A stretch of DNA of 64,000 nucleotides. Source: Mesaphorura yosii (lineage: Eukaryota > Arthropoda > Collembola > Poduromorpha > Tullbergiidae). Shown piece by piece: positions 30,307-57,537 of this stretch (position 1 is the stretch's first letter; every line of letters begins with the position of its first letter). A program made the position numbers and the translations under genes. Below the pieces are notes generated by a model. The model searched no databases. It was not told the origin of the DNA and worked only from the letters and a program-made list of their open reading frames with translations. The stretch is taken from assembly GCA_009869945.1 (NCBI GenBank), contig WIXG01000082.1, forward strand, positions 62,001 through 126,000, in the 5' to 3' direction.

Positions 30307-33300
30307 ATGGATCAAAATCTTAAAAGGTTGTCACAAACGAAGCAACAGCAGCCTCAGCAATTGACTGCCACCGGGAATACGTCTTCCATTAAGCTTGGCT
30401 CGTCCTCAGAGGAATTAACCCCGGAGGAGAAATATATACTCAGGTCGGGAAAGCGTCAAGAGCCACAAGGAGAGGAGTATTCAAGCGTCTCTGCATCCTG
30501 CGATAGTAACGTAGCGCAAAATAAGACTACCACAGTGCCAAAGACAGCAGCTGTTGCCAAGAGCCAAGTGGACTGTAGTAGAGAATTGCCAACCCAGCAG
30601 CCATTTGCAGCCATGATGAAGCCAAATAAACAACCTGCTAATTCAAGTGGGACCGCATCTGGGGGACCAGTGAAATCAACCCATCCAACCGACAGCGACA
30701 ACCGTGATCACACGTCCCCTTCATCCTCAGAAAGTTCTAGAGATCAGCGAGAGTCGGTCACGCCAACATCTTCAGACGACGAAGGTGACGATAACCATCG
30801 AAATCAGCAAGCCCAGAGGACTGAGCGTCAGTACCGAGCTTCGAATAACAGTGCTGAAAGACTGAAGTCGAAAAAGAAGTCAGGATCAGGTGGAAGTTCA
30901 GCGTCTCATTCGAAAAGCAAGAACATGAGTTTAGACTCGACACATTCTGGTCACTCAGCATACAATACTCTGATCATACATCACAATAATTCTAGTCTAC
31001 TGGCGGATACATGGTTGTAAGTGAACTAATTTCTTCTACTAGCGTACGTCAGCTGGAAAGTATATAGGACGCAGTGTACTTTCAGTATTCCTTTAAGATT
31101 ATTGCATGAAGATCACTAATGAGGTCCTAAGAGTGTGCTCGTGCACGCCACTGCTTGGCGGCACTTATGTGCACGCCCCCTTCAGTGGGCGGAACATAGA
31201 ACCGACAAAGGGTAGAATTATGAAACATTAAAAGCGGGCCGACGACAGGCTGCCTCGTGCCACTGTTGTGCTTTGGCGTCTAATCAACTTGCGACAGAAT
31301 GAATTGAAAATGGTCAATATTTATTGCTTAAAACGGCCTTGGCACGGTTTCTAATCAACAGCGATACGCTTTATTGCGCATTAAAATGCATAAAACGAAA
31401 TTAGTCTTATGCATGCATGCATTCAATTTCAGACCAGCAAATCACGAGTTTACTTCAATTGGTATGGGAGGAAAGTCAAGCAGCTCTGCAAATGCTGAGA
31501 ACAACAACGATACGAGTGGTTCGCCTTTCGCCAACTCTCGTAGTTCTATTTCGCCGTCTATGACCGACACGTTTTCGCAGCAGCAGAGTCAACACCAGTC
31601 CAAAAATGCGACCAGATCCGTAGCACATTATAGTCAGATGTCACCGACTAACTTGTACGAAAACATAGAATATCAAGCTGCAAATTCAGGCGGTACTTCG
31701 AGCGAGCTTTCGGATATTCCAAGAGACTATCTTGATCAGTTAACTGTTCTTAAACATCTTGCGAAAAATCTTCAGGTAAAATGCTAAGCAGAAAAGCCAT
31801 TTTTTGCAATGCTGAATAAATGTTCTCTTGTCTCATGTCTTCTGAAATTACAGCAAGAACCTCCTATTGGTTCCTCTTCTTCCAATCTGAAAAGATCTGA
31901 AAGTTTCTCACGCTCTCAGCCCGATCTGACACAACAGAGGCAGTACAACGTGTACCCAAATACTGCTGTGGATATTGTAAAACCACATGTCCAGCCAGCT
32001 TCAGGAACAGCATCTCTCAACGCCAACTGGCAACAAACCAAACAAGGTATACTGTTGATGAGTCATGCCATTGTAGGATCCTAACTAATGTGAGACACTT
32101 TTATCAAGGCCAAGGCTCTAGTGGGGAAGAAGTGCTGCCTTCAGTGCAAATCTTAGAAATCCTTATGCGAGAAAACGCAAACTTGAAGACTGAGCTTTTG
32201 AACGCAAGGCGCAAAATCAGTACAATCAACAAGGTAATAATTTTTAAGTTTCTTGCTTTAACCATTATTCATTATTACATGGTCCATGTTCCATTTATTT
32301 CAGCTTGAGGCAGAGTTATCTCGTCTTCAAGAGTCGCACGCTGCTCTCTTTGAATCCGCCGAAAGAAGAGAAAGTCTTGAACGATCCGCTCGGGTCAAAT
32401 TAAGTAGTGAATTGAAGCGACTAACCGCTGTAAATCGAGAACTAATGTCTTCTTCGGGCTCCTTGCAAAATCTGTCTCCTTACACTGGAAATCTTCCAGT
32501 GGACATTGAAGCTTTCAAGAAAGAACTCTCAAACAAAGATTTGGTCATCGCTCAATTGGTTTCTCAAAGTGAGAACCGCTTCTAGCGTGGGTGTTATGGT
32601 CATAATTTTGACGTTTACTGTTGTTTTCAGATAAAGAGCTGGTAGCAATAAAAGAACGGCAGGAGATCGAATTGAATGCACAGAGTGCAACATTGGCGGA
32701 ACAAAGAACTCATATTGACATACTGGACGGTGCATTAACTAATGCTCAGAATAACGTACTGCGTCTGGAAGAAGAGGTGAGTCACAATAATAGTAATGAG
32801 ATAATGGCAGCGACCGATAACTGCATTTTTGGCATTTGTTCTCTGAAGTGCCGAAAGAAGCAAGAGTATGTTGACAAAGTCTCTCAACTTCAGCGCGCCA
32901 TGTCGACACTTCAGCTCTCAAATGATAAAAGAGAACAAAGCGAGAAGAAAATTCGGACGCAATTGGAAGGTGAAATCAACGACTTGAAGTCGCGTTTGAC
33001 AACCATAAATACAAGCGCTAGTCCGGCACCAAATGCGGCTGCCTCTCGAGGAACACCGACACCTCATGCGCAACCGCCCAGAATATATCAAAGCCCTCCA
33101 CCATATCCAGGAACATTTGCTACACAATCTCATCAAAATATGATCAATGCTGCTAATCAGGAGTCTTCTGATCCTGCACATTCGGGTAACAAAAATGCAA
33201 ACGATGCTCAATTGCAACTGCTACAAGAAAAGCTTAAGGCTTCAGAAGAACAGATATATCACTTAAATTCACAAGTGGCTAAATGGCAGAATGTATTTTC

Positions 33301-36300
33301 AGCATCCGACTTTCCCAAGCAAGGCCAAAGTAACGTTTCGACTCCTACTTCCTGGAATCAGTCTCCTTCGCGTGACAACGGTGGTGGAAATGCAGCCCCG
33401 GGCAATCCTTTTGGTAGTCCTGCTTAAATACTGCCTACGCGCGAAACAAACTGTGCCAATAATTATTGTTGCAATTCGTATGTTAGATTTGGAATGGAAG
33501 ATAAAGGAATTGGAATCCCGTCTGAACGAGAAAGATGCCGTGATACGCATTTTGCAAACTGGTTCGAGCACAGTTTCATCCCCTGTGCGCCGATCACCGG
33601 TTCAATTCTCGCCATTGAATTCATCAAATTCATCGTCTGTGCCGACCATGCCATTCACAAACGTTGCACCACCGAGCTACAGAGATTCTCCAGGTTACCA
33701 GCAAGCCGTTGGGGTCGCCTCAGGGTTTGCTCCAGTGCAAGGCATGTCACGGCATCACGCGAAAGAGGCAAGTGGCAGTCTCGGATCTGGACTCGACCGT
33801 AGGTCACCGAGCGTTACTGGCGCTGCAGCATCATCAATGTACGCCAAGATGGGACTTATCCAGCAACAGCTGAAGTCTGACAGCGAACCTCCGAACTATG
33901 CTAACATTTCGCCAAAGCTCAGACTAGGAGGAAGTGGATCGAGCTTAATGAAAACGTCAAGCGAAAGTCTACAACATGGCCTTGGAAACTCGAGTGCTGG
34001 GAGTGGAAATAGCCTGGCTGGAAGTATTTCAGGCCCATCTTCTACATCCGGTGCTAGTGCTGTTGGGCATCCCACTGAAAGAAAGAGCATTGATGACCAA
34101 CTCAAGGAACTTGATACTCAGTTACTTTCTAAGGTACAGAATGAACTTTCTGAATTGCTTCGTCGTAGTGTGCTTTCCCGGGATTTTTTGTGGTCTGCTA
34201 ACCGAATAACGCATGAATGTCCTAAGTGAAGAGATTCGATGTACGCGCAATGTGGGAGAGATGTGATTCACCTAACCATATTGACTAATTCTGATTGTTG
34301 TGGGGTTTCTGTTGTGAAACGTGCATGGTTGAATGTGCATGATGAGCTTTTCGCTTTAAATATTAAAATGTACTGGGAGAAATGGTGGCCTGACCATTAC
34401 TGTTCATGTGTCCACCTGATTTGAAGACTCACCAAATTAATGTTTGCCGTGTTTTGCTTGTTTTATCTTTAGACTATTAGAACTGAGAAAATACTCAAGA
34501 AAAGCGACTGTTGAACTTTTTGATGATGAATTTGAGTTCCTTGAAATGTATGTCAAAATATATTTCTTAATTTTACTGGACAAAACATAAGGGCAAACAT
34601 TAATTTGTATATGGTTTTCAAATTAGGGCGAACCTGGAACGCTGAAAATGCATTCGGGACTCTGCTGTATTCCAGGTAAGATTTAGATTATTTGTAACAA
34701 TTAGATTTATTACTTTACCATCAACAAGAAAGTTTTTAAAACCGAGTAAGTGTTTTACAACAAATTAGAGAGTGTTTGGAATTAGACGAATTTGTTAGCT
34801 CCCAGCATAGAAAAAACAGGCTGAATATTCGGATAGGTTGGAATTTGATTGAACTTAGGGATGATGGTAAATCATCTTCTGCTCGCGAACTTAAGAATAA
34901 GATACCGTACACCATTCATTGTGTTCTTAGTCCAAGATTCAAAAATGACTTCAATATTGATCAGACAAAAATTTCTGGTACAAGTTTCAATTGGAATACC
35001 TTCTTGTTGCATGAAGTAAAAAGCCAAGATGGCCATGGCTTCTGCTTGCGGATTAGTTATCCAACTTGAGTCTTCCTTCAAATAATACAAAATCCTGCTC
35101 TTCAAATCCTTGTTCGCTTCTGGGCATGTTTCCAAAAAATTAGCCAATGTGTCGTGACGAGTTCCGTTAGCGTGTGCTTTGAATACTGTGTACTTACGAT
35201 TTCGGTCTTGAGTTTTGCCGATGTAAACGAGAAGTTTATCCTGGACTGTTAAACATTGTAATTAATTAATAATTAACTGCTATTTACCAGTAACTTTAAT
35301 TACTTAAGAAAATGCCATTACACAAGATACTGCTATCCTACTGCTTGTAGAATAGCATTTAAGGAAAGAAAAGAAAGCAATAATTTCGTAATTCTCTGCA
35401 CTAAATCCAATATGAGATAGAAAACTGAAATCTTGATTTTTTTTTACATCAGCGCTTCTTGTTGCTCTGTACTGTACATGAATTGTTATTACTTTCCTTC
35501 GATGCCGGTTCACAATGTAATGTAGATAGGAATTATGAAATTATACTAAAATCTGTTTAAAAAACTCAGGCTCGCTTTCTATATTCCAGGATTCCCTCAT
35601 CCAGCGGCTCACAAGTCACAAAAAACAATATCCAAGTCATTATTGGAAAGTTTAAGTACGCCGTATCATTTAGCTTCAGCGTCAAAGCATCCCTTGTCGC
35701 CACTGGCCCTAATGGGATTAAACATTATGCCTCCGAAGCCCCCGTCCACATATTACACACAAAATCACGGAGGTGTCGGCACAAGTCAAACGAGGACAAG
35801 TTCTGGCCCGCCGTTTATGTCTTCGGCAGCAACTGCTTTCGTCCCATTGATCCCGTCAGGAGGGAGTAAGACGGCAGCTCTCTCCAATAGTGTCGATTCT
35901 GTGTTGAATGATGCCAATTGTTCTGCAATAAGAGCGAAACCGCCCACAGGCCCTTCAGGAGGAGGTGGAAATGTGTTTGTACCAATTCCCAGAGGGTTGC
36001 CACCAAAGAGCCCGACAAATGTCTTTGATTCGTCTTCAGGTGGAAAAAGCCGGTCCCTGGAACGCAATAAGCCCTCATCTGGTTCCAGCGATCCCTGCGC
36101 TGGCAAGTACACGGTGGTCATGTATGACGCAGCTCGATGCCGAAGCCTTGACCGAAATATTAAGACGACGTCTAACTCCTCGAAGGGATCGAGCACTGAT
36201 GGCAAAAAGTCAGAGAAGGAGTCTTCGAAAGGCTTGAAATCAAGTGTAAGCTCCAAGGCAGCATTCTTCGGTCAACTGCTTACAAGAAGGTCGCCCAGCC

Positions 36301-56256: not shown

Positions 56257-56262
56257 TTTATT
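56257..56262 (-). terminator. Poly(A) signal of selenoprotein L gene
   Basis: AATAAA on the minus strand, about 240 nt after the stop codon and about 115 nt after the SECIS, so the SECIS lies inside the 3' UTR. Confidence 0.8.
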
Positions 56263-56377: not shown

Positions 56378-56449
56378 TTTCAAATTATATAATCAAAGTT
56401 TTGACTTTGCGGGCAGCAATTTGGCCAAAACTCGTCATTGAATTTGAAA
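56378..56449 (-). promoter_or_regulatory. SECIS element, form II
   Basis: In the 3' UTR, about 55 nt after the stop. Read on the minus strand: lower helix TTTCAAATT (56449-56441) pairs perfectly with AATTTGAAA (56386-56378). The SECIS core is ATGA (56438-56435) opposite TGAT (56395-56392), giving the non-Watson-Crick U-G-A/G-A quartet. The next helix GAGTTTTG pairs with CAAAACTT and is extended by GC/GT. An unpaired AAA (56422-56420) sits about 12 nt after the ATGA, as required. A mini-helix TTGC/GCAA closes the apical loop TGCCC, making it form II. It would recruit SBP2 and eEFSec to decode UGA. Confidence 0.93.
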
Positions 56450-56502
56450 CTGGTATGGTGTCTCTCCGCTGGGTTACAGATCGCCCACTTCTTTAGTATT
56501 AT

Positions 56503-57537
56503 TCATTCATGATTTTGCAGCATACCCAGAATCGCTTCAATATCTGGTCGCTCCACGACATTGTCATCCGCTACAAATGTGTAAATTTGTTCCCCAGTTT
56601 CATTGTTTATTATGACGTCGCCACCAGTCATATTTAAGTCATCTCCATCAATGTAAGGACGTTTGACGACTTTTCCAGTTGTAAGGTTTTCCACGACCCA
56701 GTAAATCGTTTTCAATCCAAACGTCTACAAAGAGAAAATATCTACGACCAAACGTGCAAACGACTAAATTTCAACCTTCAGCTTTCATTTCATTTTCTCA
56801 CCTTGGTTAAGGTATTACCCATTCCAAAGTGGGCATAAACAGAGCGATCTGGATCCCAATAATATTCATATTCACTGGCCACCTCTTTCTTATAAACTCT
56901 TACCGCGTCTTTCGGACTGAACGAAACAACAACCACGTGACACTTTGAGGCGGCCAGTTGTTCCTGGAGAGTTGTCATTTAGTGTAATAGAATGGATTAT
57001 CATTGATTGATAACGAATTCTTACCTTGGCTTCCGCAAGTAGTGTCAAATGGATTTGTCACGGAGGTCAAGAAAGATGGCGAACGAAGACCATCCATGTG
57101 TACTTTGCTCCGGATGTCACAGCCATTTGGAATATTTCCAGCAGGCTGATTTTGTTCTCATCCTCGATGTATTCGAGTTGAAGTTTCTGAATATCACCAG
57201 ACTTGATTGGTTTAAATTTTGAATCTAGTCGGCCAACAAATTGCAACCAATTTTCTTCTGCTTTGTGATACGCATTGAAAGCGGCGACAAACTCTTGATC
57301 GTCCTGATTAGTTGCACATTGCGCTTGAAGCCTTGCTTGGAATTGAGTGCCAACACTCGTACCAAATCCATTCATCAACTCCCGGTAGTATCCAAAGATT
57401 GCGGACAACTTGAAGGTGTCGGAATACTGCGCCAGAAATTCTTCGATGCTACTTCTATCGAAGGCTGCTTCGACCTCAGCGTGAAGCGCAGAAACATTCT
57501 TAGCGAAGTTATTTAGGAGTTTTGTGTAATCTGCCAT
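56503..57537 (-). CDS. SELENOL: Selenoprotein L with UxxU redox centre
   Basis: Three exons on the minus strand: 57025-57537, 56802-56963, 56503-56724; all junctions in phase 0; 298 aa if UGA is read as selenocysteine. The frame holds two TGA codons, at residues 157 (57067-57069) and 160, and no TAA or TAG before the end. They fall exactly where a thioredoxin-fold CxxC belongs: MVFVRHLS-U-P-P-U-QIHLT, followed by AEAKEQLAASKCHVVVVSFS, then YYWDPDRSVYAHFGMG and TFGLKTIYWVVENL, the hallmarks of peroxiredoxin-like 2/AhpC-type redoxins. Selenoprotein L is the known member with a UxxU, capable of a diselenide bond, reported from aquatic animals. The N-terminal 130 residues form a helical region (MADYTKLLNNFAKNVSALHA and on). 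A SECIS in the 3' UTR supports recoding. It is probably a cytosolic thiol/selenol oxidoreductase; its substrate is unknown. Confidence 0.93.

Follow-up and report, generated by a model that had tools for sequence, protein, structure and literature searches.

The locus described here raises the question of whether a gene that standard translation cuts short at a TGA codon is broken, genuinely short, or recoded. It lies in a window of 64,000 nucleotides (C82:62001-126000), which is the whole stretch of DNA that we analyzed, in a genome of 93 Mb distributed over 1127 contigs. The gene, hereafter gene A, has a second in-frame TGA three codons beyond the first, and a preliminary description had proposed that both are selenocysteine (Sec, U) codons of a SelL protein. 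We examined the reading frame, the encoded domain, the 3' UTR, related genes in the same genome and in databases, and the genes for Sec insertion.

Results and discussion

Gene structure and reading frame

Gene A occupies positions 57537..56503 on the minus strand, and its three exons encode a predicted protein of 298 amino acids (Table 1). As originally described, standard translation halts after 156 codons at a TGA, and the open frame goes on to 298 amino acids. The two UGAs, reported as three codons apart, were checked in the sequence at codons 157 and 160; the motif codons, TGA CCT CCG TGA, would be read as U-P-P-U. Both of the proposed phase-0 introns, of 61 and 77 bp, have GT-AG boundaries.

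Table 1. Features of gene A and members of its family. Positions without a contig name are those of the window.
Feature	Position	Strand	Evidence or remarks
ATG start of gene A	57537	-	
Exon 1, coding; N-terminal region, start of AhpC/TSA-type domain and UxxU	57025..57537	-	Frame, domain match
First in-frame UGA, codon 157 (predicted Sec)	57067..57069	-	TGA in paralogs B, C and E too
Second in-frame UGA, codon 160 (predicted Sec)	57058..57060	-	TGA in paralogs B, C and E too
Intron 1, 61 bp, GT-AG, phase 0	56964..57024	-	Same position in B, D and E
Exon 2, 162 bp	56802..56963	-	Gene model
Intron 2, 77 bp, GT-AG, phase 0	56725..56801	-	Same position in B, C and D
Exon 3, coding part; terminal TGA at 56505-56503	56503..56724	-	Gene model
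Predicted form II SECIS element	56378..56449	-	Anatomy, descriptor, covariation among paralogs
AATAAA, possible polyadenylation signal 3' of the SECIS	56257..56262	-	Motif match only
Gene B	C82:228620-229648	+	UPAU; 52.4% identity to A
Gene C	C1062:9557-10540	+	UQPU; 32.9% identity to A
Gene D (locus L006)	C23:90635-89310	-	WPLC; 26.6% identity to A
Gene E	C1082:9690-8668	-	UPPU; 25.4% identity to A
Copy F, apparently decayed (locus L022)	C95, ~215038-214540; motif at 215038	-	TGA TTG CCC TGA TGA
G, C-terminal fragment	C552:15306-15572		

The terminal codon of gene A is also a TGA. Because paralog B ends in TAA no more than two residues from the end of A in the alignment, termination at this final TGA is likely; rare read-through, with an occasional third Sec at this codon, is possible. 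Beyond the terminal TGA the frame stays open for another 40 codons (56502-56380, minus strand), crossing the SECIS.

Domain and family assignment

The gene A protein matches the Pfam families AhpC-TSA (3.1e-09) and AhpC-TSA_2 (3.2e-09), both above cut-off. The AhpC-TSA match covers residues 142-233 and takes in residues 157-160; the UxxU sits at the CxxC position of a peroxiredoxin/thioredoxin-like domain. The first ~120 amino acids give no Pfam match above cut-off. An AlphaFold model of exon 1 alone was set aside, its mean pLDDT being 46.

The preliminary description had called for a search of the 298-aa product against SelL families. In NCBIfam, the only match at E <= 0.1 is NF040769, "SelL-related redox protein" (E 5.5e-27), which aligns residues 144-293 of gene A to profile positions 24-172 of 173 with a score of 94.5 bits, short of the curated 120-bit cut-off of a model used in prokaryotic annotation. 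The model is matched by all four of the family domains in the set searched (A, B, C and D; E was outside that set). In genome searches, the model stays below cut-off in every control genome yet matches 12 of the 14 weakly; a weak match therefore says little, and only the strength of the 94.5-bit score counts. Together with the UPPU at the CxxC place, the AhpC-TSA domain and the one predicted SECIS described below, this match bears out the assignment to SelL that had been proposed.

The predicted SECIS element

Eukaryotic form II SECIS elements have an AUGA/UGAU core, an additional apical mini-helix and, some 12 nt above the core, an AA(A). A complete element of this form, with ATGA/TGAT, AAA, mini-helix and a 9-bp stem, had been proposed for the 3' UTR of gene A, and every part was located at 56449-56378, where the element has all the form II anatomical features. 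The lower stem is a perfect 9 bp, TTTCAAATT/AATTTGAAA (56449-56441 with 56386-56378), and the core consists of ATGA at 56438-56435 and TGAT at 56395-56392. The AAA lies at 56422-56420, 12 nt beyond the ATGA, and the mini-helix, TTGC/GCAA, falls inside 56419-56407. This single element in the 3' UTR is predicted to function for both Sec codons. A 75-nt piece without the 5' strand of the lower stem had a folding energy no better than that of shuffles (z -0.84).

At its gathering cut-off, the Rfam model RF00031 (SECIS_1) has no match in the whole window or in the 3' region of gene A, nor did a scan with SECIS_1 of loci L005, L007, L021 and L006, which include paralogs B, C and E, give a SECIS match. 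Because the element of gene A is not a member of the Rfam model, we name it a SECIS by its anatomy and its covariation.

We used a descriptor that comprises ATGA, 11-13 nt, AAA, a mini-helix, TGAT and a helix with at least six of nine pairs; it was composed after the elements had been inspected, and its counts are therefore not blind. On both strands of the window it matches three distinct places, one of them the SECIS of gene A. Within 600 nt past the stop codon, each of the four UGA-bearing family genes has one match (A, B, C and E), at 64 nt from the terminal TGA to the core in A and at 55, 54 and 46 nt from the stop in B, C and E, respectively. Past the stop of D, which has sense codons at the motif, and of the decayed copy F, the descriptor finds no match; one extra match falls in another locus, L023. 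A looser pairing score was reached by 67, 144, 73 and 144 of 3000 random 450-nt pieces for A, B, C and E, respectively, and is weak evidence by itself.

The four elements were also aligned with one another. Across 14 stem pairs, 89.3% of cells are paired, and nine of the 14 pairs show two-sided changes; none of 500 shuffles attains either figure. When the partners were slid by one to three columns, paired cells fell to 30-48%. The structure used in this test was that of A, a choice that gives the unslid version an advantage, and the test covered stem pairs other than those of the lower stem. The lower stem is perfect in A only, and the minimum-energy fold of C is without it.

Paralogs and database relatives

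We searched the same genome with NF040769, segments of the gene A protein and the paralogs themselves, and recovered the genes and remnants in Table 1, whose counts are lower bounds. Gene A belongs, on this evidence, to a SelL family with at least four predicted Sec-coding genes, one Sec-less WPLC relative, one decayed copy and one fragment. Both motif sites are TGA in four of the five intact genes (A, B, C and E), with A and E sharing UPPU. The four UGA-bearing proteins have diverged to 21.5-52.4% identity while keeping both UGAs and a SECIS-shaped element. Intron positions are shared as well: A, B and D have both, C has the second only, and E the first only, where the splice sites of B-E were deduced from the alignment and the donor of E, GTTAGC, is unusual. 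A Cys residue beside the motif, Cys179 in A, is invariant across the five intact proteins. Copy F, in which the frame is broken and a TAA stands in frame, appears to have decayed.

Between A and B, dN is 0.36 and dS 1.45 over the 137 codons 3' of the UGAs, compared with 0.35 and 2.41 over the 155 codons 5' of them; dS for this pair approaches saturation, and several other pairs gave no computable value. These values indicate that protein-level constraint runs on past the UGAs in A and B.

Gene D has the codons TGG CCG CTG TGT opposite TGA CCT CCG TGA in A, one base different per Sec codon. TGG and TGT at the motif sites, together with the descriptor-negative 3' region, form the pattern that would be expected on giving up Sec. 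Either a later ATG serves as the start of D, or its protein would carry an extended N-terminus.

In database searches, the full-length gene A protein yielded no relatives among 1188 candidates, and a PDB sequence search gave no match. Domain-alignment searches returned four and three matches, which correspond to six distinct proteins (P0001-P0006). P0001 is a 117-aa fragment drawn from public JGI data; past the motif, its identity to A and to B is 53-54%. P0002 has CxxC at the motif and scores 129.8 bits with NF040769, above the cut-off. P0003 and P0004 are short and without the motif region, and P0005 is distant (65.9 bits against C, 55.5 against A and 52.0 against E). P0006, a 72-aa sequence from public data, is by eye one residue off the last exon of D; because a nearly identical sequence exists in public data, at least that exon is no assembly artefact. 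Pattern scans of viral_contigs (11 stretches) and genome_contigs (14 stretches) gave pattern matches and no relatives. In a seven-row tree, P0001 clusters with A and B (support 86/98, not starred), and the branching of C, D and E is not resolved; these three lineages may represent paralogs that predate the A/B group.

Selenocysteine machinery

Genes for Sec insertion are present elsewhere in the genome. A tRNA-Sec gene at C32:318770-318855 scores 74.6 bits against a cut-off of 47 and has the anticodon TCA according to ARAGORN; three weaker places lie under the cut-off, and the model also matches in all 14 control genomes, above cut-off in five. SepSecS is represented by eight exon matches on C190, the best at 94.1 bits, with each exon under the whole-protein cut-off; one of the 14 control genomes matches. 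Domain 4 of eEFSec was found on C108 (64.3 bits; cut-off 27), with no match in any of the 14 controls.

Proposed mechanism and alternative interpretations

We propose that both UGAs of gene A would be decoded as Sec under the direction of the one form II SECIS in the 3' UTR, Sec insertion being served by the tRNA-Sec, SepSecS and eEFSec whose genes lie at other places in the genome. The two Sec residues, placed where CxxC lies in related proteins, would most likely form a reversible diselenide, which could serve redox chemistry linked to thiols or peroxide. We infer Sec insertion and the diselenide, and likewise a substrate and a reductant for the protein, from sequence.

Sec might also be inserted at both sites with no diselenide cycling, one residue attacking peroxide and the other resolving, or a Sec-Cys pair forming, for example with Cys179. 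The peroxidase-like fold family and the invariant Cys179 next to the motif speak for such chemistry; however, a diselenide is described for SelL in two reports (PMC2397514, PMC12822975), and we consider chemistry of this kind unlikely. More drastic readings would deny Sec altogether. That gene A is a decaying copy, its two TGAs plain nonsense mutations, might be suspected from the presence of the decayed members F and G in the same genome. Yet the same codons are TGA in four of the five intact genes, constraint persists past them and the SECIS covaries across four genes, whereas F, unlike A, lacks a SECIS match and is interrupted by a frame break and a TAA; decay of gene A is consequently very improbable in our judgment.

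We give similarly little credence to a true stop at codon 157, which would leave a 156-aa helical protein and an untranslated remainder. Standard translation without recoding does yield this product, but the coding sequence and introns past codon 160 are conserved in paralogs, and the SECIS sits after the distal stop. A UGA read as another amino acid such as Trp, by read-through or an altered nuclear code, could explain the TGG at the first motif site of D, but not the TGT rather than TGG at its second site; moreover, A and C appear to terminate with TGA, and the genome contains tRNA-Sec and SECIS elements, which together leave this reading with next to no probability. We are highly confident that gene A is an intact animal SelL (SELENOL) gene, with both UGAs predicted to be read as Sec via the 3' UTR SECIS and a likely diselenide in its product.

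Comparison with described SelL proteins

The SelL family was reportedly founded by a paper of Shchedrina and others in 2007, and to our knowledge its physiological role is still open. In earlier reports, SelL has two Sec residues two residues apart, inserted with a single SECIS (PMC3316567); it has a diselenide bond and is confined to aquatic organisms (PMC2397514), the diselenide also being described in PMC12822975; and it occurs in fish, invertebrates and marine bacteria (PMC3316567, PMC2397514, PMC12822975). Gene A resembles these proteins in its two predicted Sec residues two residues apart and its one SECIS, and differs from the proteins modeled by NF040769 in its longer N-terminal part and a score under the cut-off. 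With AhpC/TSA-type thioredoxin-fold proteins (AhpC-TSA, AhpC-TSA_2) it has the domain in common but differs by two UGAs and a SECIS. The UxxU motif itself is shared with SELENOW of amphioxus and Ostreococcus lucimarinus (PMC7539508), by name a different protein family.

The two-Sec SelL is already a described family, and the motif of gene A by itself is not new. The unusual part is the occurrence of several predicted Sec-coding SelL genes and a Sec-less relative in one genome. As far as Table 1 of PMC3473315 records, five of six marine invertebrates have one SelL gene and the sixth has none, in contrast to the at least four Sec-coding genes and the WPLC relative predicted here. Our literature search found no multi-gene SelL family and no Trp/Cys form of SelL; either may have been published elsewhere.

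We rate at about an even chance the broader proposal that diselenide chemistry has diversified in this animal, giving a family with four or more UxxU proteins that have diverged separately and differ in their inner residues (PP, PA, QP, PP), and that one branch (WPLC) has given up selenium. If so, WPLC would leave D unable to form a diselenide or a disulfide at this site, and D would probably have taken on a new role. Several diverged SelL genes that code for Sec, alongside a relative naturally lacking it, would constitute a ready comparison set in one genome, which bears on the residues kept without selenium, on the loss of the SECIS along with the UGAs, and on the roles of distinct UxxU proteins. 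Such genes escape both standard translation and the Rfam SECIS model.

Other candidate selenoproteins and features

In a genome search with Rfam SECIS_1, in which 133 of 1771 candidates were scored, the cut-off was reached at one place, C322:13387-13456. The frame that precedes this element on the minus strand (C322:13456-13387; locus L037, C322:12500-17500) ends GGRQGG-TGA-G-stop, an ending that we take to be that of SelS; the C322 gene would thus be SelS-like.

Locus L020 (C56:106000-115500) has three tandem AhpC/TSA-like genes at ~108783-113329. Two carry RRFGCxFCR, and the third has RRFG-TGA-LFCR, in which the TGA at 112861-112863 replaces the first Cys; we presume this gene to be a possible SelU-type UxxC selenoprotein. 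Over positions 113300-114600 of L020, the SECIS descriptor has no match.

A search for COX1, meant to place the animal taxonomically, gave no match. The window of gene A also includes an angiomotin C-terminal domain (within 32612-33427, plus strand; E 1.1e-11), which we take as a sign of an animal genome and which is likely part of a larger gene.
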